Source of the DNA: Heliocidaris erythrogramma
Lineage: Eukaryota; Echinodermata; Echinoidea; Camarodonta; Echinometridae
Assembly (NCBI GenBank): GCA_025617745.1
Contig: CM046866.1
Span: forward strand, 19,289,725 to 19,353,724
Length of the DNA stretch: 64,000 nucleotides
Reading direction: 5' to 3'
Position 1 is the stretch's first letter. Every line of letters starts with the position of its first letter. The notes beneath the pieces are model-generated. The model was given only the letters and a program-made list of their open reading frames with translations. It searched no databases and had not been told where the DNA came from. Shown here one piece after another: positions 5,320 to 62,762 of this stretch. The position numbers and the translations under genes were made by a program.

Positions 5320-8300
5320 CTGAAACAAGACGGGGCAAACACCAAAGCTTTATTAAATCTCCCATTCGAACATCAATGGATCAAATCTATGTAAAACTGG
5401 TTAAATCGTCCTGGGGGGATGTTTCATAAAGCTGTTTGTAAGTTACGAATGACTTTACGCACGACTGGTGATCAGTTCTTGTGCTAAATGATTGAGAATC
5501 TGATTAGTATAGCACCCAGGACCTATAAATGAAAAAAACAAAAAACCCTTCAGTTGTACTTATGCTGCTGTGAATGGATAGAAAGAGGGTGCAAAGTAAA
5601 ATTCAAAGCCGTCCTGACTATCAGTCTGATGTTAACACTGGAACAACATAGTACCTCATTTTACTCAGAGTAAGTTTGTGTATTAGCATCAAGCACAGTC
5701 AGCAGGAAACATCAAATTATCAATTTATTGTCCAAGCTATACAAAACAATTACAGACCTGCTAACGCTGAAAAGTAAAAAAAAAACTGAGTCATGCGAGC
5801 ATAGAGATCGTGGTGTTCGCAGTGTCCCACAGCTGGGGGTCTAAGGGACAGTGCCCCTGAAGCTCCTGCAGTTTAAGCTCTGAAAAGTGCACTGTTAGGG
5901 CCAATATTGTTACTATTCTAACCAAAAAAAAAAATCCCGGAAGAAAAGGCGGAATTGCCATGGCAATATTCATTTTCATTTTCGCCGCCTTGGAGGCAGT
6001 TTTTGGCCTAGCAGATCAGTTTCGGCGACATGTACAAAGTCAATAATAGGGAGCGCGCATGCACACGGTGCGTTAACCGCTGATCAAAAGTCCCAGCAGC
6101 CCAAGCTGGCGTCCAACGCCGGAGCTCCCCCGCGTAAGACCCAGCCGAAAAATACTCCCACAGTATCAGACACTGAAATCTCAAGAATAACAAGATATCG
6201 CGTGTGCGTCTTACGCGAATGTATGACATTTGTTCTGGTCTGAATTTGCCATGCTAATCCTCAAACTATACCTAACCCTAACCCTAATCTTCACATTGTC
6301 ATGAACAAAAAAACAAAGCATGACCTTGACCTTAACCTTTGACCTTTCGAGATATGGACTGCAGAGCAAATATCGCAGGAGCAAATGTCGGCACCCCTCT
6401 TACGCACCTACTATCTTGACTGCAACGTGCGATTGACATACGAAAAATCCTGATCGAAAACTGAAAATTCTTGAAATACAGCTCAGTTTTTAGAACCCAT
6501 TTTTTTTCATTGCTACTGCGTTCCTGAGACTTTGGTATGTATTGTATGTGATATCCGGCCTATATACTGTGCACACATAAACAGAGGAGTTGGCAGGTCT
6601 GCAATTATCAGATCACTCTAAATACACAATAAAGCATAAATTCAAAATTTACACTTGCCACTTAACCTGTGATACCAAGTGCTTTGGAAGATATATCAAG
6701 TGTTGCAAAAGGGCGAGAACTTACTGCAAAGTGTCTAACGCAGTGGTTCTTTACCTAAAGGGCACCATGACCCATTTTGGCAATACTTGTTGTGGTGGCT
6801 GACACCAAAAAGCAGGGTTTTTTTCAGCACTGATACCCCTTTCATTGTTACTAACTTACTGTGAATAAGTTTCAATGGGATTTTATTTCATGCCTAGTTT
6901 AAATTTGGCCCGCGATTGGTGTACAGAGCCCGTATCCTGCCCGTATCCTCTTTTCTGTCCAGCCTCCACACGAAGGCAGAAGGTGGCCATGGGATTTTCG
7001 TACGTATTAACGGGCTCCGCGGCATCTACGATTTTGTTTCGCGGGAAGTAATACAAATTTGAAAAAATCATAAGCCCATAGCACCGTAGACATGTCGTAG
7101 GTGGCATTGCACAATGCCTGCACGGGCATCGCGCGGAGGCCTCAATTTTTTGTTGAACATGGCTGCAAAAAAAATTGGACAGAGATTGTAGACTAGTTGG
7201 ACATTTTCAAGGCCATAGCACAGTTATCACAAGGTTGCCGCTCGATGCCTGTGCAGTATTCGTGATACTGAGCAGTCATCCCGCTGCAACCCCACAGCTC
7301 CTACACCATGACTGTGCAGCCGCCTTGAGACGGGCCAAAAATTTGTCAGATGGGCTACGTACAATTTCTGTGCGGAGGCTGCAGAGGCTGCACTGGAATT
7401 GCACGATGTCCGTACAATCTCCGAACTGCCTCTGTACGGATTTGTCCTGGCCTGCCCCCAATATAATACACACAAACACCGTAGCCTGTAGCCACCAACG
7501 ATGCCCCAAAAATCGCAAGGAAAATCGTAGACCAATTTATTGTACGGCACCCGGGGCAAATGTAAACTAAGCATCACTGATGACCCATTTACTACTGTAA
7601 AACGAGAAAATCCCAGAAACTCCAAGACATCTGCAAATTTGGTGAGTGGTAGAGATTCAGGAAAGTTCCGAACCACGATAACTCGATCACAACACTGACA
7701 TTTGTGCAAATCATGACAGGGATTGCAGGGATTGTTGTCATCATTAACGATTCTCAAAAGTTTCATGTTGCCATAGGTTCTGGTTTTACCATGTTCCCCT
7801 TTGGCTATAAAAACCATAAATGACCCTAATGGGGTTCACAACCCCAGAATAAGAAAAATTAGTCTAATGTGATTGAAGACGTCTATTTTTGACACATACC
7901 TGCAAACCATCTGTTGTGAAGATTGTTGACTGCAGCCATAGCTATCTGTGCAGTAGGGCACTTCACATAGACATTGCCTTGTGGTGATGCTTTATCTACA
8001 TGTATATGAAGGACTCCTCCGTGCTTGTTACATTCCTCAATCACATCGTCTCTGATATCCGTCTCCCAACCTAGCATCGTTTCTCTGTAAACAAAAGATG
8101 ATTGTCATTAAACATTGAAGTAGAGTTTACTTGCCATTCTTTACTTATGAACAGCTGAATCTGAATGGACAGCATTTCAATTGATTCCATCAAATCAACA
8201 GATATTAAGAATTCAAAGAATTTACTCTAAAATCATTTTTTTTAAATGAAGAATGAATACTTGCAACAAAAAGAAATAACAGAAAACACATATGGCGATA

Positions 8301-11300
8301 TTTAAGCTGTTTTATTACTCCGGCATAACTGCAGAATGTCTTAATATCTTAACGCCGGTTAAGATATTGAAAATGTGTATTCATTCTCTACAACTGGTTG
8401 TATGACAAGTGCTACAGCAAAAATGGCTTCACATTAATTCCATACGCTGGACCAAACACCCTAACCCTAAACCTAAACCTAACCTAAAACCAAATCGCAA
8501 CCCCAACCCTATATCTTTTATGAAATAATGCACAGAGCAATTGTCACCAGAGCGTATGTCAGAGTGCCCCTTCACTACGGCTCTATTAACTTTGAGGATT
8601 GCCTGATGTATCCCCCATTAATCTCTGCAAATCAATCAATGATTGACTTGTGACTGATATAATTGTTAGATGAGCACTGAGCAACCAGGGTAAAGGGAGA
8701 CACAATTTTGACATTGTAAGAACTCTCTAGTCAGCCTTTGGAATGAAGAAAGAGAGCACATGATGCCCATGATGCCCAGGAGCTCAGGGTGTCAAAGGAT
8801 TTCTAAGTCATACACAATATGAGAGCAAATTCCTTACAATACTTACGCTTGAGGATCAAACATGTTTGAGAGCATGAAGCAAGCTGTAGATCCTGCTCCC
8901 GTAGGCCCACCTGGTGCTGCTGCTGGTGCTGGTGGTGCTGGTGCAGGGACCTGGGCTACTGGTGGTGGTGGTGGCTGAGGTACTGGTTCAGGTAATAGAC
9001 CAGGTCCTAGAGGTGGGATCCCTGACAGGACGTCCGGTATGGCTCCCATCCCAAGTGCCAAATTGGTCTGTAGTGTAGACATAAATAGAGTTTGAGTCAT
9101 GAGAAATTAAAGAAAGAGATAGGACATTAAAATGAATTTCATCATTTTGCCAAGTTCTTACCAATATTCAGACTTAATAATTTACTTCGCCTAAATGCAC
9201 ACTGGTGAAAAATTGGAAGGCTCCTGGTTATCCCCCATAGATTCATACATTTTGCGATAACTAGACTAGTACACTGAAATAAGTGATAATTTACTAAATG
9301 TCTATAGACATTAACTAAATTTTTACAAATTTTTAGGCAATGTTTTACTCCTCCATATAATAATTCAAGCAGAAAACAACTAAAACATGCCATGGGCTAA
9401 TCTTCATTCAAATTCTTACTCCACAACCCTAAAGGCTTGTTCACATATGTCGCTGTAAAATTCCAAGGCAAAAATAAAAAAATTTCATTGAGTAAATGAA
9501 TGGCAAAGCGGGGTGAGATAAAGTATCTAACAATAACAAAGACCAGTAAGCATACTGACATATTTGTGTGTTATATGCAGTGTTATAGCTACGGTGGTCG
9601 GCGGTGGACGGGCCCGACCAGCACGGGGGATTTCCGTCCACCACTCCGGGTGAAAAACACTGCTTCCGACCGGCACTAATTTCACATAAGAACTGCATTA
9701 AACGTAACTGTTTGTGAAGAAACGTGGTACTTACATTCATATTTCCATCTTTATTCTTGTTTTATTTGCAATCGTACAAGAATCATGCTTTCTATTTGAC
9801 AATAAATGATTATTTCTTAAAGATTTGCCGAGTTTCGTTGTCTTTTGTTACGCACTATACTGTACTACTGTTCGTAATTTGCACATACAAATAGATATCA
9901 TGTTTTACGTAGCGTATACCGGAAGCTGCTAATTGCGAGGCTCCGTTCGCTAGAATGACTTGTTGCTTGTCAGTCAGTGAAATTTGAACCACCACTAAAA
10001 AGTTCCTAGCTATAACACTGGTTATATGATACAGAAATGTTACACTATGAACACGGTGACAAAGAGAGCGGACAATTTATGCAGCTCCTCATTGTACCCT
10101 CCACAATAGCTCTAGTAAACAAAAGGACATCCCTTCACTGCTATTATGCGACACCTGTTCTACATATTTTAACAGGATAGCAATGAATGGATGTTCTTTT
10201 GTTAACCAGTGCAATTGTGATGGGTACAAGGAGGAGCAGCATAAATTGTCCGCTTCTTTGTTCGTCATGTTCATAGTGTTAGGTGCACTACGATATGTCA
10301 TTTTATTTTGTAACAGCATTTTTTTAGAGGCTATTCACAATATCCTATGGGAATGAGGCCTTAGACTGGAGGATGTTGGCCATTACCTGTTGCGCTGATG
10401 CTGTAGCTGCTGCTAGTGCTTGTGCACTCTGTTGAGCCTGTAACTGAGCAGCTTGTAGTGACTCCTGTAGGTTCATACCAGCCGGTGGTAGTGTGACCTG
10501 GTTAGGGTTGATCTGGATACCTGGCAGACCCAGTCCTGGGACCTGGCTCAACGGATGCAAGGCCTCAGCTGCTGCAGCAGGGATCTGGAAACCTGTACCT
10601 GCAGGTTACAAAGAGAAAGATTTTAGGATAATGCTATACGGTACCTCACAGAAGTGAATACGCTCTTCACAAATTTGCACATAATTCACTGCAACTTTTT
10701 AAGTATTGAAACTAGACACAAAAGCTGAAAAATAAAAGTCATTCTCAGACACAGAGATCCACATATATGGGAAAATCATCTCGAGTTGTAAGAAGCTAGA
10801 AAATGCAAAGTTTAACCAAAGAAAATGCAAAGTTTAACCAAAGTGGTATTTTTGTAGTACCCCTACCAATAGATATCTTTTGTCCAGTGTCAAACATGAC
10901 AACGATCACCGACCATACAGCATTTTGCTTTGATGCCCATCCTACTCAACACAATGCCCCTTTAAAAAAAAAAAACACAAGGCCACTTTTAACTTTAAAT
11001 AACTACTTTGTACCACTTAAGATTGTTTGGTTTCTGTGCCCATTTGAGTTCCCAAAGTGGCCTGCTCCTTAAACAACCCCCTTCTATGCAGTAAGGTATG
11101 TCAACAATTATCATAAATGAAGTTTAAAGAGTCAAATTTTTGCATTCGCTTCAGTTTTTTTTTTATTGTTGGATTGAGTATGAAATGTCTGTAAAAAGAA
11201 CAATCTTTAGAATAAAAGTTTCTGTTTTTGTTTCTGGACAAAAGAACTACCTGTTCCTAGCCCCCAAAACATGGTTCATCAATGCGATTATGGGCTGGGA

Positions 11301-14300
11301 TTTGCCTCCAATGACATGGAATGGTCTGAAATGTAAAGATAATAATGATAATATTCAGTCGTTGTATAGCGTATAATACATATTTATCAATGTTCCTATG
11401 TGCTTCCACAGAGCTTTGGATTTAACCCCGGCTCAGCCTAGCTGCCCTAATGAAGTCGCGGAAGCTTCAAGGAATAAATTCCTACCAGTACCTATTCATT
11501 TCACTTGGGTCAATAGTAGCAAAATATGTAGATTAATGTCTTGCCAAAGGACTTTACCTCTGGGCTGGGATTCTACAGTCCGATTGACTTACCTTCAGCT
11601 AGTTTGGCCATGAGTTGCAGTCTTCCAGTGGTGTTGAGTGTGATACCTCTCTTATCAAGCTCTTCACTGTCCAGGAATGATGGAGCTTGTTGGCCTTGTT
11701 CATTCCTCTCTGTGACATGGTTGACTTTCATGGGTCTACCTGCTAACTCAAACCCATTCAGCTGATCTAAGGCTCTCTTGGCATCTTCGGCATCATGGAA
11801 CTACAAACAAAACAAAAACAGTAAGGCGTAATGACAAGATTACACAATGAAACAACAAATAACAAATTTATGAAAGATAATCTGGAGTTCTGGCAATGGA
11901 ATTCCATTTCAAGACAAAGAAAATGCCCAGGGCAGTCTCGCTGCATCACGCAATTTTCACTTGGTGAAATATATATGAAAGATTTTGGGGCACTTCTAAA
12001 ATCAAAACTTCAAACAACAGTTATTATTTCCAAAGGATAATTATGATCACTTACAATGCCAAATTACTTTGACATTCCTAAGTGATATACAAGACCTGTC
12101 CACACATCTAATCATGTCTGATAAATACTGAAATAAAAATGTCAATGACATCATCAATGACATTATCGATAGCAGAATGTACTAACCGTAATAAAACCAT
12201 ATCCTTTGGATCTGTTGGCATCTGTATCCATCATCAACTGAATATTGTCAATCTGGGCAGGGAAAGGAAAAGAGGTTGAGTGCTATTTATACATGTACCA
12301 ATGGATGACGGTAAATATTACTGCAGAAGATAATCAACTTAAGTGGGAAAAGAAAGTCTATTTAACATCCACTTACAGGCTGTAGTGAACAGAATTATAA
12401 ATATATATATAAAACATACTTAAATTATTCAAAAACACAGAGAAGCAAAATGAAACAAATCCTAAATAAATAGCAACAGATATAGCATTTGGAAAGTCAG
12501 TATCAGCCTAACAGACGTGAGATGTAATATCGGAACATTGGTTTCTGTAAGTTACAGTAAATCTATGCAATAAGATGGGGTTTAAGCCTTGCTTAAAGTT
12601 AGGTAGTACGGGCCTCAGTCTTTAATCAAGGTAGAGACTGTATCAAGCAGTACAAGCAGTACAATTTCTAAATCGGCAACAAAAATGCAAATAATTAGAA
12701 GCCCTTAGCATCTTTACCATGTAAAGACAGAGGTGCAAATTTAATGAGGACAAGCAAATCTATTCAATTATTTGGAATCCCTGTGAGTACTTACTTTACC
12801 AAAGGGCTCAAAGATGCCCCTTAGCATGGCCTCTGTGATGTTATAATGTAAAGATCCTACATAGAGTCTCATAGGACCCGAGTTGACCTTCTGAAGTGTC
12901 ACATTCTGACCAGCAGAACGATTCTTCTCTGCATGGGATGGCTGGACGATGATGGGTACACCTAACAGCTTCTGATTGTTCAGCCCTAGAGCCTGCATAG
13001 TCAAGGGAAGCAACAAACAAGAATATTATTTTTACGATAGCCATTCTAAGAAAATCTATGCACATTGCGTGACATGTACACTGCTCTTGTGTGGGATGGC
13101 TAGAAAAAGATGCTTCCAATTTTTCAGTCCCAGAGCCTGAATACATTAATGATTAATGTATACAATACAAAACAAAACATTCATACCATAGCCAATTCTA
13201 ACATTATTTCAGAAATTCATGGAAAAATATGTTAAAGGCACTATTCAACTTTATAAAACACATGTTGGTCAAATAAGTCCAAAAAGGTGATTGGAAGCAG
13301 GATCACATGGATGACCTAATATTGAACCATACGTGAATTGGCAGCTCAAGAAACGGTTTCATTTGTATTTTTCCGCATAATTTAAGCATAATTTAATGTT
13401 ATTTATTTACAAGGAATACACTATGAAGGTGCTAATTTGTATTATGGTATACAAAAGGATCTCTGTATTTCAATTCTTAATTGTTAAAACTAGATAAGAG
13501 CTACAAACTCTACCGGTGTGAGCTACAAACTCTACCGGTGTGATCTACATGTTATTGGGTGGTTGCAGACTAGTTTCAAATTTTAAAATGAATTAAATTG
13601 GCCACAGTACACTGCATTTCAACTGAACTTACCAGTGGTACGGAATCTGCGGAATCATATTCCACGTAGCCTACTCCTTTTGACCTTCTCGAGTTACGAT
13701 CTGTGATGATTTTGACAGTTCTCACCTTTAAAGAAAGGATAAAGTAAATGAGATTCATGTTCAAGTGATACATATGCTGGTACTTAAATAGACTGTACAC
13801 AATCATCGCCCATATTCATCACCCCAAATATGCATGCATCAAATTTACTGGGTATGGAATAATAATTATGTCAATATTACATTCTGACTACTGCAAGAAG
13901 ATTCAGAGCAAGATATTGCAACTTGTCTGCTGCTAAAGAAGAATGAATGAGCATCATTTCTCCTCTTCTATGTGACATTTGATTCATCAAAAGAACTGTC
14001 CTAACAAAACTGGTGTATTGTACTAGTATCCTGTGGTGGTATTCGGAAATCTGTTAAGTCTTCATAGTAAATTGAAATCAGAGCAAGTCATTGGTTGATG
14101 TCTGGGCGAGGGTGGCTGCATACTCATTTTCCAACAATAAAGTGTTTATTCTGTGCAATCTCACTTTGCTCTGGCAATTAACATCATTTTCTTTAACATA
14201 TATTATAAAAATAACTTTCAGAATACGGTCCATGCTAACAATTTTATGTGACGACTTACAAGAGAGATATTATACCCCGACTCCTGATGAGAAAAATCTT

Positions 14301-17300
14301 TGGAGTTCTCTTTCTCTGGCACTGTGTGAGAGCTGCATCACAAAGACTGTTCTAATATATCTGGTGTATACTATACTGCTAACTATTTTATGTGATGAAT
14401 GAGATATCATACCTTGCCTACTGCTGAGAAGAATTCTTTGAGTTCCCTTTCTCTGGCTCTTTGTGAGAGCTGCATCACAAAGACTGTTCTTGCATCTCGG
14501 GTATCAGCATCTGGATCATCTCGTCTGAAAATAAGAAGGCAGTAAGAAAAACAAAGTTAGCAAGCTGTAATCTGAATAGTTAAATCTGTAGGAACATGGG
14601 ATTTATCTACTTTTTGAAATATCAATTTGCATTGCAGGGAACAAACAAAGTATCGGTACTATTAAAAGCACTACTAGTAATGAAATTTTAATTCACAAAA
14701 GAAGAGATTTCTCATCAATTTCCCTGATTAAATTGTGATATATAGTGGCTAAAGTAGTACTGTAATTAACAAAACAAACCAACTAAATAAAAAATTCCTA
14801 AAAGTATTACTCTGGAAAGTATTTGTGATCATGTTAAACTATCTAAAATTTGTGGATTCTTTTTTTCTTCGTCACTTTAATAAGTTCCTGTCATTCAATG
14901 AGACTTTCCAAATATTGGATGTTAATGACTTACACAGGGCTGACATCCTTGTTGCGTTCTTTGCTGCGTGACCTCCTTGACCTGTAGTTATCCTCTTCCC
15001 TGTCCCGATACCCTCGTCCACCCCTATAACCTCCTCCACCCCATCGGTCTCCTCCTCCCCTGTATCCCCCATAGCGCTCCCTGCTCCGGCTCCTCCTCCT
15101 GACTGGGCTGCGACGTCTCTCCCTGTCCCTGTCCCTGTCCCGATCCTTCCTGTCGGACCTGTCACGGTCTCTGTCCCGCTCTCCTCGATCCCTGTCCCTG
15201 TCCCGGTCTCTGTCCCTCTCACGATCCTTGTCTTTGCCTCTGTCTCTGTCTTTGCGATCTCTGTAAGGTGAAAGTTAGCATTGTATAACTCTGAAAAGTG
15301 ATATTTTTTTTAACACATATTTCCATGGATGCCAGAGACACCAAACTTCTTTGTGAGTTGTTGTTTTCATGATAACACAGGCTACTCTACAATAAATGTC
15401 TGCACCACAATTCGCAAAATTTGCAAAAATAAAATCCTCGTAAAGATATCGGCTTAAAACAGTAACTAATTTAAAACTCTTCCTTATAGTACAAACCTAT
15501 ATGTTACATACATTTGTACAGCTATCAGTGCTACAATCACATGTAGAATTCCTAAAAATCTGACATGAATTCAAAGTCATTCATCAATCTTTAAATGATT
15601 GATCATGGAGGATTTCATTTACAACCAAGATGCAGTGACACAAAGGACACATCCCCCTTCTCTCTGATTGAAAATAAGTTGGGTTTCATGTTGGCTTTAA
15701 TGTTGGCTTTATTGTCATTTCTACCAGATCCTTTCCAAGGTGAATGAAACACCATATGGCAAATCTGCGAAGCACTGGAGTGACACTGAGCATACTTCAA
15801 GTTGGACAAGTACACATGATTGATAGTTCCTACATTTCTAACTACATTTGTCAAAAAAAGCATTCTCCGTAGAACGGCACAAGGACGGGAGAGCAGTCTC
15901 ACCTGTGTCTTTCTCTACTCTTGCTGCGGCTACGCTTCCTTCCTTTGCTCCTGCTGCGACTCCTTCTCCTTTCCTCCCTGCAATAGAGAAAGCCTCAACA
16001 TGTTAATGATGTCACTTTTTTAACATATCTACAAATATTTACTTTTTGGGGGTATTGATTTGATCTAATATTCTGTATATTGATAAAATCTTGATAGGAT
16101 TCCAAGTCCTTGGCAGAAGTTCTTTCTTTTCTTCTTCTTCTTCTAGTTTGTCCTTTGTTTCCTATGTGACAGTAAACTATCAGAGAGCACTCCACATCAT
16201 TTTTAGGAAAACTTGACATTTCTTCCTGCCTTCCTGTAGTACGGCTATTCCCATTAGATTTAAACTTTTCTTTCATCACTTATTCCAAAAGAAAACAAAC
16301 ACTTGGTGATTCAATTTAGATTCATGCATTCGCTGTGACACTGGTGACATTTAATCAGTAAATTATCAGCTGCAAGTACATATTTCAGGTTTGCATCAGC
16401 CATGATGTACATGTACTAGGCCTATTCACAGAACATTTACCAATAGAAACTATGATATCAAAGACTTTTCAGTCCCGTGTGGAAAGAATAGCTCTGATGT
16501 TTCTCACTTCATACTACACCTAGCACTTTCACCATAATATTGATGAGATTCTAACAAAACTAATCCCAGATTCCAGAGTACATAACGGTGAAACCACAGG
16601 AACCCGTGATGGCTTTCTTCATGTACTATCTCTCATCGGCTTTGTCCCCTTTTAGACAAACCATGTATATATCTTGCAGTCTCATCGTCTATAAGACTAC
16701 AACCTTCTCCACTCTTTCTCATATGTATGAGACTACAGTAGACAAGGGGTTTATGAGAGGGAGGGGTCAAATCAAATGAAATGGGATGTTGAGCTTGACA
16801 CCTTGCACCATGACGATCATCTCTGCCCTTCTCCCTCCACCACGGGACGAAAACAACTTTCGATTTCGGTTCTGCAGGCGGAGTTGGCTAGGTTTTTCTC
16901 ACTTTATCCAAACAATCTGCGGCAATAGACATTGACCCAAGTTGTTACTCATTTCTTAGTTTGTAATGTTTTGATTTGGGATGGGGTCGTGAAGGAGGAT
17001 TTACATGAAATTAATGTTGACCTGCTCACATTAAAAGCCAAAGTTTGCACATGTATTCTAAGAGCCAAAATCTTTCAATGCATAAAGTCAGTCTTATTCT
17101 AAATTCATAACATGAACTAAGCAATTACAGTATTTTTTGTCCACTGAGACTCTCCACAAATAGGACATGTGCACCTCTAAATATATTTCTCTTTCAATAG
17201 TCCGCACAAAATGAACAAAATGACAATTTCAGATGTGTCATATTCGTCTGAAAAAAATTCCCTGCAAAATATTTTTGAAGTAATTTCATCTTATCCTTCT

Positions 17301-32919: not shown

Positions 32920-34990
32920 TACTTAAGAGAATTTGTAATGCGCCAACTCCATGCACATGACTAATGTGCTCAAGGCGCAATGGAGAGGAAAAACTTGCAA
33001 TTACACAAAAATACACGAAAATGGAACAACAACAGTGTGAAAGTAAATCTACCGGTAAGCCTTTTTGAACAAATGAGTTTTTAGGGCATTTTTAAAGCAA
33101 TCTATACCTGACATAATGGATATCCTGTGGCAATTGATTCCACAGGTAAGGTCCAGCATGAGCAAATGACCGATCCCCCCATGATTTCTTAGTTTTCGGG
33201 ACAACAAGCAATTTAGAATCAGATGATCTTAAGCGTCTGGGAGGATTATAATGCATCAACAAATTAATATTGTACTCTGGGGCAGATCCATGTAGGCCTA
33301 TACAGTGAAAAACAAGTAATAATTTAAATACAATTCGGGATTCGACAGGTATAACCAATATAGTGAAAACAAAACAGGAGTAATGTGAGTAGGACGCCTG
33401 GTAAGGGTAACAATACGGGCTGCTGAATTTTGTAATTTTTGTAACTGTGAAAGTTGAGATTGTGGCAGTTGAAACAAAAGTGCATTGCCAAAGTCAAGCC
33501 GGGATGATATGAGGGCATGAACTATTTTTTCGGTGGCCGAGCGGGTTAAATATTTGCGGATGATGCCTAAATTACCTAACTGATACCGGACATATGAATT
33601 TCTCACCCCCTGATTTGTTCACATAATTTGAAGGTTTAATTCTGCTTTAGTCAGCTGTGCGCACATGTATACGCGACTCGAGTACCACGCGCTCGATCAG
33701 CTGGGTGGTCCAGGTCATTGCTCTGTATAAATCGGTGTTTTGTTCGCGGCTGATCTATTATAGCAATGGGGGGCAACGGAGAAGGGAGGGACAGAAGAGC
33801 TGCTATTTACGAATCTCACTCCGAGTACACAACAGTGCGTACGCGGGAAGGAAGAATTTTACACTTTCTCATTCGACATGATTCATCCATTTCATCCACG
33901 GTATGCAACATATCACTCCACAGCTGTAACGACTGCTCAATTCGCATTCACGGTCGTTCAACACACACATTGGATTGATGCACCCCGTTTTAGAATGGCA
34001 CAGTCCAAATCGAGCCTATATACGCAGCATTACATACTGTACGTGTTTTATATACATGACATCTTTTTTGCTATGTTTCTTTTTAATTATGCAAAATAGA
34101 CGGCGGTTTTTTTCGACCAATCAGGACGAACCTGATATCACAAGAAAGAGTAACATCTTGGCTATTTGCTAGTCTTTGCCCCCATACATTTTGACACGTA
34201 AGTCAGAAGCTATAGGAGGAATACGAGAGCAATGATTGCAAAAAAGTGCTTCTCCTCACACAAAAAACATGAAACCATGCATTTTCAGTCGAAAATAGGC
34301 GGCGGTTTTTTTCATTCAATTAAAAAATAACTGATATCATGAGATGTAGAATTAATCAAAGTTTTATTAACCGTTTGCCCCCATGAAAAATCTTGCGCGG
34401 TTCTCGAGATATGATTTAAAATGTGCCGAAAAGGACGTGTTTTCGCCAAATTTCTGTCGAAAGATCGGGGATCACAACCGGTTCGCGTTAAGTGAACATG
34501 ACAAATTCATATGAGATTTACAAACAGCTGGGATCTGAGCGGACATGGACATTGTAGAATCACATAATACTTCAAGATTTCTACGTGATTTAGACGGAGT
34601 AATATATAACAACATCGTCAACCTTAGAGGGACTGAGGCTGACCTTGTCTAATACAGCTTTAGAACCGATAAACAACAGCTCCGATTTAATTTTCTCTTG
34701 ATTTAATTTCAAGGAATTAGAGCTCATTCCTTGATATCGTGAACACAATTAAGCTTCAAGTTTTTGAATGGTATCAATGACATTGGTTTGGTTAGGTAGG
34801 AAAGACGTAGGCTATATACTTGGATATCGTCTGCATAACAATGGTAATTAAAAGAGTGACATTGCAAAATCTGTTTCAGACCACTTAGGTAAATTGAGAA
34901 AAGTGTCGGGCCTCCAACAGATCCTTGCGGAACACCACTAACCAATGCAGCAGGATCAGACTTAGTACTATAGTCAGGTTCTATCTAAGT
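32920..34990 (-). mobile_element. CR1/L2-like LINE remnant, interrupted and frameshifted
   Basis: Minus strand. Polymerase motifs GVPQGSVGGPTLFSIYL and YADDIQVY (catalytic Asp pair present) lie in 34724-34945. After a 910-bp insertion, RKYLTRSATEKIVHALISSR and QLQKLQNSAARIVTLTRR (33298-33606) and, past a frameshift near 33345, YNPPRRLRSSDSKLLVVPKT and AHAGPYLWNQLPQDI (33092-33240) follow. The 3' end carries GCGCCTTGAGCAC. It is truncated upstream of about 34990, without endonuclease or ORF1. Dead copy. Confidence 0.9.
33598..34507. mobile_element. 910-bp insertion in the LINE, CATATGA duplication
   Basis: CATATGA occurs at 33591-33597 and 34508-34514, and the LINE protein resumes across it (VCKS on one side, SYVRYQLGNLG on the other). 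The ends show no clear inverted repeats. Inside are two diverged copies of a segment beginning GGCGGTTTTTTTC (about 34101 and 34304) and ending at TTTGCCCCCAT. Origin unknown. Confidence 0.6.
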
Positions 34991-35378
34991 ATCAATCATG
35001 ATTGGGCTTTACACTTTGGGGATAGCCCGGGTGGGATGGGTGGGACGTGATATATGCGCTCGTTCACTTTCTGCTCAGACAGATCTGGTTCACTGACATC
35101 ATGCATGCGGATCATGACTTTCATGTCTAGCGCCATCTTCACCTAATTTACCGTCTAGCTAGCTTCGAGATACTATGCATGATGCGTATATACGTACGTA
35201 CGTCGACGTCGCGTCGCAAGAATTAACTACCAATACCATGTAGATTTCACAATATCTGGCATCGATATTCTTTCTGAATGACATGGAAGAACCATCTGAA
35301 ATCATGTTTAGATTATGTTTTACCAATTTTGGAGAAGAAATTAGTTATCTATTGATTTGATGGAAACATTTGCGAACC
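34991..35378 (+). promoter_or_regulatory. Upstream region and 5' leader of SOCS6-like gene
   Basis: Between the LINE and the SOCS start codon. It includes palindromic ACGTACGTACGT (about 35192) and GTCGACGTCGCG. The transcription start is not determinable. A 24-codon upstream frame starts at the ATG at 35283 (MEEPSEIMF...) and stops at 35357, 21 bases before the main start. Confidence 0.35.
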
Positions 35379-36998
35379 ATGTCGTCCGTTAAGAAATTGA
35401 GTTTGAGTGGCTTTAAATCCACATTCAAGCGGAAATCAAGCCGAGGAAGTTCGAGGAGCAATGTCGACGCCACCGCACAACATGGACAACAAGGGTATGT
35501 GTGTGATAACGAAAGTAGCAAAACAAGCGACGAGTATCAGAATATTCCGACCAAAAACGGGCCATTAAAAGTTCAAACAAAGGAAAATATCCCCCAAAAT
35601 GATGGTGAAGATGGTCAGAAAACCCATGAAATTAAAACAAGTCGGTGGGGGTTTCGGCAAAAGTCGGCTGGAAAGAGCAAAATCTGTGAAAATGGGAATG
35701 AAAAGATACCAACTATACGCGGTTGTGAACCCGGAAGTGGCGTTCATACAGATGATCGCGATATTGTCACTGAAGAAACTGATGTGCCAGTATGCAACCC
35801 ACCGTCTGCGAATGGACATATTGTCATGAATAATCCAAGTCCATGTCTGAATGACAATGAGATTGGATATATTGGTGCCAGATTGTCCAAGACACGGCAA
35901 TGTCTTTCCAAAAATTCCAGTTGTCATTCTTTTCAAGAAGTAGACAATTTCAATCATCTTTACATCAATGATGGAAAGTAGAAAAATGACAAAATTGAAA
36001 CTGCTCCCTGGACAGATGAATGTGGCACAGAGGATTTAGAAATAGAAAGTGGTAGACATAGACGCTATGATGCTCCATTGCCTGTGCCTAGTGATATTGA
36101 TCATGAAGTTCACAATATAAATATAAAATGTGATGTGAATGATAATGCTGAAATGTTTGAAGAAAGACTTGACGAGTGCCTAGAAAATAATGTTCAATCT
36201 ATGCAGGATGGTGACTGTGTCACATCACAAGAAATCCCACCGGCCATTCCACCCAAACCTGCATCACTCTACAACAATGGTCAGTGGGTTTTGCAGGGGT
36301 CTGACTCTGTTCAAACTAAAAATAAGAAGAATTCAACGATATGCTTTGGTGAAGAAGAAGCACCTCCTAGACCTCCTGCACGTTCAAAAACGAGACATGG
36401 TGTGGACATGAATTTGCCATTTTATAAGCAGTACTTGGAACTGAAAGAGAAATCCAGTCCGGCAGCCCCGATATACGAAGACGTAAGGGTAGAAGTTGGT
36501 TTGGATAGTGGTGGACTTGCTGGAGAGCTGTCCAAACTACCTCGCCAGCCTTGGTACTGGGGTCCAATGAGCCAGGACGAAGCTGAAGAGAAGCTTGCAG
36601 AAGCTGTTGACGGAAGCTTTCTGGTGAGGGATAGTTCCGATGATAGGTATCTCCTAACGCTAAGCTTCAATTCCAATGGTCGTACCCTCCACACCCGGAT
36701 TGAACATCGCAATGGCCTGTTCAGTCTCAATGATTCTGAGGGACATGCCTCTGTCATTGAGCTTATAGAGAATGCAGTGAAGGAGTCTCAGGGTGGAATC
36801 TTCGGTTACATGAACGACTCAACAGGAATCCAGAACTTCCCAGCCAGACTGACGCAGTGGGTTTCCCGATACAGCGAGGTGAAGTCACTCCAGTACCTCT
36901 GTCGCTTTGTGATCAGGGAAACTTACCCCAGACATCACATTCGCCATCTTCCACTTCCAAAGAAGATCAATGAGTATATCCTAGAAAATCAGTACTAA
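35379..36998 (+). CDS. SOCS6: SOCS6-like suppressor of cytokine signalling, in-frame TAG at codon 201
   Basis: Adaptor that binds phosphotyrosine via its SH2 domain and recruits Elongin B/C-Cullin-5 ubiquitin ligase via its SOCS box. The start ATG at 35379 (context ACCATGT) opens MSSVKKLSLSGFKSTFKRKS, like human SOCS6 MKKISLKTLRKSFNLNKS. The frame has 540 codons including the terminal stop; human SOCS6 is 535 residues. A single TAG at 35979-35981 (codon 201) interrupts it. Downstream in the same frame: Pro-rich SH3-type motifs (about 287-294 and 328-334), SH2 domain from WYWGPM (392) to about 497 with phosphate-binding Arg417 in FLVRDSSDDRYLL, and SOCS box (about 501-539) with SLQYLCRFVIR and Cul5-box LPLPKK, ending EYILENQY as in SOCS6 (human EKHY). 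One coding exon, as in vertebrates. The TAG could be a nonsense allele, a sequence error, readthrough or a pseudogene; all else looks intact. Confidence 0.92.
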
Positions 36999-39337
36999 AA
37001 TACGTTTGATAACTAATTAAGTGTTTTGAATCATGAATTGAAATGCAGAATTATTCCTTCCAAAGATGTCTTAAGTGCATTTATCTTTTGTATGCCATTT
37101 TGTATGAACAGCATATTTTAAACTGTGAAATATATGTATATGTAAGGCCTTTCAGTGATGACAATTTCCTGTAAGAGTACAATGTAGATGCATTATCTGG
37201 AAATCCATTGTTGAGAGAAGTGAAGAAATCTTTAGAATGAGTATTAAGCAAAGTGTAACTGACTTACAAGTTAATATTAGCACACATACATGTATGTAAA
37301 GCTTACATGTACATCATGAACATGTGTAAACATAGTCAATTTCATTTTTGCATACTGTATTTTTAGGTGCTTTATTTTTCTTTTTATCATATGGACCTTT
37401 CCATGACTTTGTAGAGGATATAGTTTTTTTTTTCCTTGCTTGGGACTTCAAGCATTAATGGGTAGTGTTGCATCTCTCTCCCCTTTAGTCAATGTGAACC
37501 ATAACATCAATTCTCGCTACCCCAAATACGCAATTTCGCCAACAGATGGTGTTTGTCATGCAAACCACGCATGCGCAGTGCTGACGATATCCCGATTGGG
37601 TCGACAAGTGTTTGTCTTTTTGCATTGAAAATGTACACAGGTATTAAAAAAATCCTCGAGCTTGAATTTAACAGACATGTTTGAAAAGATACCATGATGA
37701 TTTATTGAGACAATTGGTTGCATTTTAACAATTCGAGTGGTTTATGTCATGCGATCCAAAAATTAAGCATTTTAGCACTCATTTTATTCATAAGCCGAAG
37801 TATTTCAATACGGACCGGAAGTGAAGTTAACGAAGATGCGGACCATTTCCATGCATAATATTGCCCTCTACGTCGAAAATTGCATATTTGAGGTAGCGAG
37901 AATTATGTTATACTTGCTGTGCTTCAAGTACTATGTCATAAGGGATGAAAACAAAAGCCTGAGTGAAAAGTGCCTTAATAATCTTTGTAGTTTCCAAGAT
38001 TTAAAGAATGAAACACTTGGAGATATATGGAGATATATATATATAAAAGGACAACCAAAAAAGAAAAGAAACTTATGTTTTGTAAAAAAAAAAAAAAAAT
38101 TGATCAAAAGAAGGAATAAATTACATGTACATGTAGGCCTACAGTTTGTTTCAATCTTTGAAGATTATTATTAAATGGAGTGTACCCTTTCTTGTTTCCA
38201 GTACATATTTTTTAAATCTCTACATCACAGTACTTGATGAAGTTTTTATTTCAGTTAAATATGCCATGCTTTTTTTTAAAGGAAAATGCAAATTTTTTTT
38301 TTGCTTCTAAAGGTTCATATTCATCTTTGTGCTGTAATAAGTTGTCCACCATTTGGATGCAACTTGAAAGTTGTAACAAGTGTACATTATGATGAATGAG
38401 AGTAATGCAGTTTTAGTCATACACTTATGTTTCATATTTAACTTAGAAAAACAATTTGTGCATCCAGCACCCAGCAGTACACATACCATAAATTTTCTAG
38501 TTTTGTACAGAGTTTGTTTTAATGTATCTATGGAGAATACTCTGTACATTGTACATGTAGATCTGACTGTATTTCATTTGTGTATACATTGTAGATACTA
38601 TGTTTTCACGCCCGAGCCTGCTCATTATTATGTAAGTACAATTTAAGCTTAGTGTCAGCTAGCGCAAAGGAAAAGTTTTTCTTTCTTGAATATAACTCAC
38701 AATGTTTCCCTTTCTGTGTCACGTACTTTATGTAAGAAACTTGCATTCCATCTTTTTTTATGGTGTTGAAATATTCAACTGTTGTTTATGCGTACAAATT
38801 CAGTATCTCATGTATAATTGTGCCTTATACATTTGATTTTGATTGAATCACTGATGTTTACTGTGACAGATGACCCCAAGTAGAGATTTGTCTGTTTTAC
38901 CACCATTCCTTCCATGTTTTGTAGTCTTTGCTAATTTGCTGTTTAGTTTGATGTTTGGTTATATCACTTGAAATATGTGAAGAGCCCATTATCATGATCA
39001 CTTAAATGCTTAGGAATGTGATGATTATGTTGTCATTCTGTTTCCTGTAGTTGGTGGTACATGTCGGTACAAGTGCATAACAGACAAATCAACATCCATC
39101 GTGCTCTTATTTCATTTCTCATATTTTGAGATGAAAATATTTTTGAGTGTCAAAATTCAGTGATTATGTGCCATCACTTCCAAGATTCTCCATCTCTCCA
39201 GACTGGTATTAATTTTGAAACCAATCAACGGATAGTTCAAAATGCCTGTACATGTAGTGAAGTGCTTGTGAAGGAAAATTGAAGAAAATATTTATAGCAA
39301 GCAATCGTGTAAGCAATACAATGTATTAAGAGATGAT
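36999..39337 (+). other. SOCS6 3' flank / probable long 3' UTR
   Basis: AT-rich sequence without protein-like frames. The first clear AATAAA signals on the plus strand downstream are near 40091 and 40724, so the 3' UTR may be several kilobases long, as in other SOCS6 genes. Confidence 0.35.
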
Positions 39338-61572: not shown

Positions 61573-62762
61573 AAGAGCCCCAGGGGGCACGATGCTCACC
61601 TGAGGTGGATCAATTCACATCTGGTGCATGTTCTCTCTAGCACCACCAGGAGATATGTTAGAAATTGAAACAACTAGGAGGATGTAGATGAGATGATGTT
61701 AGAAATTAACATAATTCCCCCCCCCCCCACCCCTCCAGTATGTTACCCCCACAGACCCCCTATAGGGCCACCCAGAAAAAATTCATGAACAACATTCATT
61801 CTTCATCTATAGAGGTATCTCCATACACAATACCAAGTCTGAGCTATGCCTGGTTCTGGAGAAGAAGATGTTTGAAATTTACATAGCTTTTACAATTGGG
61901 GGCCTTCCCCCTGGGCCCCCCTGGGGGCCACATGTACCATTTTAGCAACTTTGGGTCCCCTACCCCTAAGGATGATTCCTACCAAGTTTGGTTGAATTCC
62001 GATCATGTGTTTTGGAGAAGAAGATCAGAATGTACTACCTGGCAGCGCCCCCCCCCCCCCTCCAGTATGTTACCCCCACAGGGCCCCTATAGGGCCACTC
62101 AGAGAAATTTCATGAACAACATTCATTCTTCATCTATAGAGGTATCTCCATACACAATACCAAGTCTGAGCTATGCCTGGTTCTGGAGAAGAAGATGTTT
62201 GAAATTTACATAGCTTTTACAATTGGGGGCCTCCCCCCTGGGCCCCCCTGGGGGCCACATGTACCATTTTAGCAACTTTGGGTCCCCTACCCCTAAGGAT
62301 GATTCCTACCAAGTTTGGTTGAATTCCGATCATGTGTTTTGGAGAAGAAGATCAGAATGTACATTTTGCCTGGCAGCGCCCCCCCCCCCCCCCCTCCAGT
62401 ATGTTACCCCCACAGGGCCCCTATAGGGCCACTCAGAGAAATTTCATGAACAACATTCATTCTTCATCTATAGAGGTATCTCCATACACAATACCAAGTC
62501 TGAGCTATGCCTGGTTCTGGAGAAGAAGATGTTTGAAATTTACATAGCTTTTACAATTGGGGGCCCTCCCCCTGAGCCCCCCTGCTGGCCACATGTACCA
62601 TTTTAGCAACTTTGGGTCCCCTACCCCTAAGGATGATTCCTACCAAGTTTGGTTGAATTCCGATCATGGGTTTTGGAGAAGAAGATGAAAATGTAAAAAG
62701 TTAACGGATGACGGACGACGGACAAATTTCCATCGCAATAGCTCACTCGAGCCTTACATGTA
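61573..62762 (+). repeat. Tandem element, three units of about 330 bp
   Basis: Units start at TCCAGTATGTTACCCCCACA (61734, 62061, 62395; spacings 327 and 334). Each has an internal half-repeat: CCAAGTCTGAGCTATGCCTG GTTCTGGAGAAGAAGATG and CCAAGTTTGGTTGAATTCCG ... GTTTTGGAGAAGAAGATC. The array starts GAGCCCCAGGGGGCACGATG CTCACCTGAG and ends ATCGCAATAGCTCACTCGAG CC, a weak inverted pair. Similar tandem elements occur in many marine invertebrates. The 105-residue frames inside are repeat-derived. Confidence 0.8.

Follow-up and report, generated by a model that had tools for sequence, protein, structure and literature searches.

The SOCS6 frame and its in-frame TAG

The 64,000-nt window analysed here (positions 19289725 to 19353724 of contig C14 of the animal's own assembly) contains, on the + strand, a SOCS6 frame that starts at an ATG at 35379 and ends in a TAA at 36998. 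Translation of this frame meets a single internal stop, a TAG at 35979-35981, which corresponds to codon 201. Across the 539 codons that precede the TAA there are no frame breaks, and the TAG is the one disabling change; the length of 540 codons given in a preliminary description of this DNA counts the terminal TAA. Over the interval 35379-36998, the remaining frames contain 27 and 54 stops in the forward direction and 14, 22 and 21 in the reverse direction. The observation from which this work started, that a TAG at codon 201 interrupts an otherwise open frame, is therefore correct: the TAG shares the frame of the starting ATG, and no other stop is found before the TAA. The parts of the gene are the following.

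35379..35978, + strand: N-terminal part of the SOCS6 frame, 200 codons (open frame, without a Pfam match)
35979..35981, + strand: in-frame TAG, codon 201 (sequence)
35982..36551, + strand: 190 codons from the TAG to the SH2 core, with proline-rich motifs (open frame; periodicity over codons 202-260)
36552..36770, + strand: SH2 domain (Pfam PF00017, residues 191-263 of the C-terminal part; match to PDB 2vif)
36879..36983, + strand: SOCS box (Pfam PF07525, residues 300-334 of the C-terminal part)
36996..36998, + strand: TAA, end of the frame (sequence)
36153..36998, + strand: putative short form of 281 residues from an in-frame ATG downstream of the TAG (considered unlikely)

Both domains that Pfam recognizes lie after the TAG and score above its cut-off, namely an SH2 domain (E = 3.9e-12) followed by a C-terminal SOCS box (E = 1.1e-9), the order found in SOCS6. 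The first 200 residues matched no Pfam family at E values up to 1. The best solved-structure match of the 338-residue C-terminal part was human SOCS6 (PDB 2vif, E = 1e-39, aligning only residues 174-302). The motif FLVRDSS places the SH2 arginine at codon 417, so that the Arg417 named in the preliminary description is indeed present. In the SOCS box, whose Cul5 box had been described as preserved, LQYLCRFVI starts at codon 504 and LPLP at codon 524, motifs that we take to be the BC box and the Cul5 box, respectively.

To place the gene within its family, it can be set against SOCS6 and its sister family SOCS7. Leaving the TAG aside, the DNA frame 35379-36998 reads as a single coding exon, which is the arrangement described for most vertebrate SOCS6 genes, whereas vertebrate SOCS7 is described as having ten exons (PMC6368001). 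Proline-rich N-terminal motifs have been described for both families (PMC3976820), and the window gene carries such motifs at codons 288 and 328, that is, between the TAG and the SH2 core, a feature in which it also resembles SOCS7. In summary, the likeness to vertebrate and human SOCS6 consists of a terminal SH2 domain and SOCS box behind a long N-terminal part, of coding in one exon and of the closest solved relative, in a comparison that covers the C-terminal part only; the difference is the stop at codon 201. Vertebrate SOCS7 differs from the window gene in its exon number, and in this genome the SOCS7-like gene is a separate, split gene on another contig (C4). When both genes were compared pairwise with 2vif over the same 55 SH2 residues, the window gene reached 85.8 bits and the SOCS7-like gene 77.5 bits, which is compatible with an assignment of the window gene to SOCS6. 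No SOCS7 chains were present among the best 60 matches listed for either of these two genes in the structure searches. A pattern search of viral contigs gave 11 matches and no relatives, and a search of genome contigs gave 127 pattern matches with one relative, a hit in a gut MAG (36% over query residues 27-87). In literature on echinoderm SOCS6 or on SOCS6 premature stop codons, we did not find this stop among the titles and the opening parts of abstracts. Overall, the TAG is real as an observation, it lies in what is apparently the sole SOCS6 gene of the genome, and it is ordinary in kind.

Genomic copies, coding signal and age of any loss

The animal's own assembly has 26 contigs and 1,064,227,859 bases. 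We searched it at the protein level, using the 306 C-terminal residues as query and scoring only the best candidates. Six places matched: the window gene at 100%, two pieces on C4 at 63% and 38%, and one place each on C5 (47%), C3 (30%) and C17 (41%). Among the candidates scored in this protein search there was thus only one SOCS6 place, accompanied by weaker SOCS-like paralogues. The two pieces on C4, about 7.5 kb apart, look like two exons of one SOCS7-like gene, which we presume to be SOCS7 itself. At the C5 and C3 places the alignment spans both the SH2 part and the SOCS box, and at the C17 place the SH2 part only. With an alternative genetic code in mind, we looked past the matches in three SOCS-like paralogues; their next in-frame stops are TGA, TAA and TGA, which is uninformative on the TAG. 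These results bear on the reading of the window gene as a decaying SOCS6 retrocopy or duplicate whose intact parent lies elsewhere. A SOCS6 frame without introns would suit a retrocopy, but in the protein search the sole place at 100% is the window gene and the runner-up is SOCS7-like at 63%, and one coding exon is described as usual in vertebrate SOCS6 (PMC6368001). We consider such an origin highly improbable.

Coding signal on both sides of the TAG was measured with a position-specific base model. Codons 1-180 and 261-539 served for training, and the model then scored codons 181-260 with the TAG omitted. The gene's frame scored +4.2, +3.2, +4.4 and +6.0 in blocks 181-200, 202-221, 222-241 and 242-260, scores that were reached by 0.34%, 0.94%, 0.14% and 0% of 5000 shuffles per block, respectively. 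The two other forward frames were negative in all four blocks. Scores above zero also occurred on the reverse strand, once in each of the first three blocks (2.8, 0.2 and 1.3) and as 2.0 and 0.4 in the last, always below the gene's frame. Three-base periodicity therefore runs across the TAG in the same frame, which indicates that the TAG sits in recently coding sequence, although periodicity would look alike in a functional gene and in one that died only recently. For this reason the proposal that constraint acts past the stop was overstated: periodicity and domains would both persist if the TAG were a new nonsense allele or an error, and together they argue for coding until recently, not for present constraint. 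The related statement that everything after the stop is conserved was assessed for the part from the SH2 domain to the SOCS box, where both domains are intact.

The absence of a second disabling change implies that any relaxation of constraint on the SOCS6 frame is young. Of the 4842 single-base changes that the frame can undergo, 215 create a stop. We used a simple neutral model in which indels are one tenth as frequent as substitutions and two thirds of them break the frame. The frame then escapes a second disabling change with probability 0.41, 0.17, 0.03 and 0.0001 at 0.5, 1, 2 and 5% divergence; without indels, the corresponding values are 0.70, 0.49, 0.24 and 0.03. A segregating allele or a sequence error agrees with a single disabling change as well as a young unconstrained gene does. 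An old pseudogene was rejected, since it would show several disabling changes, whereas the 539 codons hold a single stop in an unbroken frame.

Interpretation of the TAG

The TAG might lie in an intron and be removed by splicing. We scanned for donors up to 60 bases before the TAG and acceptors up to about 260 bases after it, with introns of at least 40 bases, scoring splice sites with textbook base frequencies. Nineteen GT-AG pairs around the TAG keep the frame open. The best of them, 35978-36091, combines a donor that exceeds 75% of the 3419 + strand GTs in the window with a fair acceptor that exceeds 89% of AGs. However, its donor has a negative log-odds score (-2.17), and codons 202-238, which make up nearly all of this putative intron, are periodic in frame (0.24% of shuffles). 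Introns inserted into coding exons of fish SOCS genes are known, catfish SOCS6b included, but most vertebrate SOCS6 genes are reported to have one coding exon (PMC6368001). A hidden intron is, on balance, very unlikely.

A shorter SOCS6 with both the SH2 domain and the SOCS box could instead be made by re-initiation, leaky scanning or a transcript starting inside the exon. As the preliminary description had pointed out, the in-frame ATG at 36153 yields 281 residues carrying both domains, and it has a purine at -3. The re-initiation that had been suggested at this ATG is nevertheless unlikely, because ten ATGs, all out of frame, intervene between the TAG and 36153, behind a frame of 200 codons. 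We regard production of the short form, by whichever of the three routes, as improbable.

Another way to obtain SOCS6 from this frame would be to decode the stop, either by programmed readthrough or by A-to-I editing of the UAG to a Trp codon, so that full-length protein is made in some cells. The frame is intact beyond the TAG, and Drosophila readthrough genes also have an open frame that continues past the stop (PMC3840789). The stop in the window differs from theirs in its position, within the first half of the gene, and in coming without a known readthrough signal. Readthrough is reported to be favoured by a purine at -1 and, in yeast, by adenines at -1 and -2 (PMC12233894), and the site has an A at -2 and a G at -1. 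Within the local fold, the UAG is largely base-paired (0.84-0.94). On the other hand, the UAG is followed by AAA, unlike the strong UGA-CUA type of motif, in which CUAG follows UGA, and a TAG version of the MDH1 context gave 0.4% readthrough in a reporter (PMC12233894). The local RNA fold is ordinary (z = -1.12, with 11 of 100 shuffles as stable), and with no UGA-CUA at the site we found no known strong readthrough context or structure there. None of the four inverted-repeat pairs in 34900-38200 encloses the TAG, and the best distant duplex (-29.7) was matched by 8 of 10 shuffled queries. Sequence and fold thus contain no positive sign of a decoded stop and nothing decisive against one, and we hold decoding to be very improbable. 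Slighter still is the chance that the whole species carries the TAG and that some tissues decode it by readthrough or editing, the cell then choosing between a 200-residue N-terminal piece and the full SOCS6 ubiquitin-ligase adaptor; in that event the finding would be of wider significance, since a conserved regulatory gene would be recoded at a stop within its first half. We obtained no positive evidence for programmed readthrough or editing, and none for re-initiation or a hidden intron.

We favour the reading that the TAG is probably a single-base nonsense change on the sequenced haplotype, located in the coding exon of the sole detected SOCS6 gene. It would represent either a loss-of-function allele that still segregates or a loss that happened very recently. 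Like the natural nonsense alleles of other reference or sampled genomes, the TAG at codon 201 is one stop in a gene otherwise intact, and it is a candidate allele of this type. Ribosomes would halt at codon 201 and produce a 200-residue piece without SH2 domain and SOCS box, predicted to be unable to bind phosphotyrosine targets or to recruit the Elongin/Cullin ligase. In most vertebrate SOCS6 genes the coding exon comes last; if the same is true here, nonsense-mediated decay may spare the mRNA. The claim that truncation removes every known functional domain applies to the SH2 domain and the SOCS box but has to be corrected for the N-terminal domain, which is described as driving SOCS6 to the nucleus (PMC3976820). 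Human exomes hold a mean of 115 loss-of-function genotypes (nonsense plus splice) per person, 23 of them homozygous (PMC4950961). If these counts can be transferred to this animal, nonsense alleles are to be expected somewhere in any individual's genome. Similarly, since SOCS6-deficient mice show no obvious effect according to a review (PMC3976820), loss of SOCS6 may be tolerated, provided that the mouse is a guide to this animal. As a nonsense allele, the TAG would be one more natural loss of a signalling adaptor and chiefly a caution for annotation.

The main rival of a nonsense allele, less probable but by far the strongest of the alternatives, is a consensus or base-calling error, in which case the individual would carry a sense codon and its SOCS6 would be normal. 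A single wrong base would be enough, and the assembled consensus alone does not distinguish such an error from a stop that is fixed and decoded. Because the frame is unchanged on both sides of the TAG, the error would have to be a substitution, while long-read sequencing errors are mostly indels. Two small contigs of the same assembly hold bacterial genes, among them PhoR and an IS110 transposase, and the reading frame of each of these two genes is broken into two. Errors left uncorrected where the assembly is thin may account for this; the splits may, however, be real, and they say little about the chromosomes. The options listed in the preliminary description (nonsense allele, sequence error, regulated readthrough, re-initiation or very young pseudogene) all stand, as do its SOCS6-like C-terminal half and the stop itself.

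Other features of the window and the assembly

About 500 bases past the SOCS6 frame lie two inverted arms, 37509-37536 and 37877-37904, of 28 bases each, 93% complementary and 340 bases apart, which resemble a small inverted-repeat element. On the - strand, 7928-16161 contains fragments of an RBM39-like splicing-factor gene, whose exon at 11576-11794 matches Pfam RBM39linker and solved RBM39; the remaining fragments, two of them without a Pfam match, presumably belong to the same gene. Scans of the window with Rfam (gathering thresholds) and for tRNAs gave no matches. A unit of about 500-600 bp is present between 21654 and 24489 in three copies, one of them inverted, that are 94-95% alike. Each copy has an open stretch starting QVFVGDRRTDRAGTTTSAEG, and the one copy that was checked had no Pfam match. 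At 61717-62695 a 327-bp unit occurs three times in tandem, its copies being about 96% alike. Outside the window, bacterial genes are present on C26 (PhoR and RdgC) and on C25 (the IS110 transposase), both among the smallest contigs of the assembly, with PhoR and the transposase each in two pieces; C25 and C26 are probably bacterial contigs remaining in the animal assembly.
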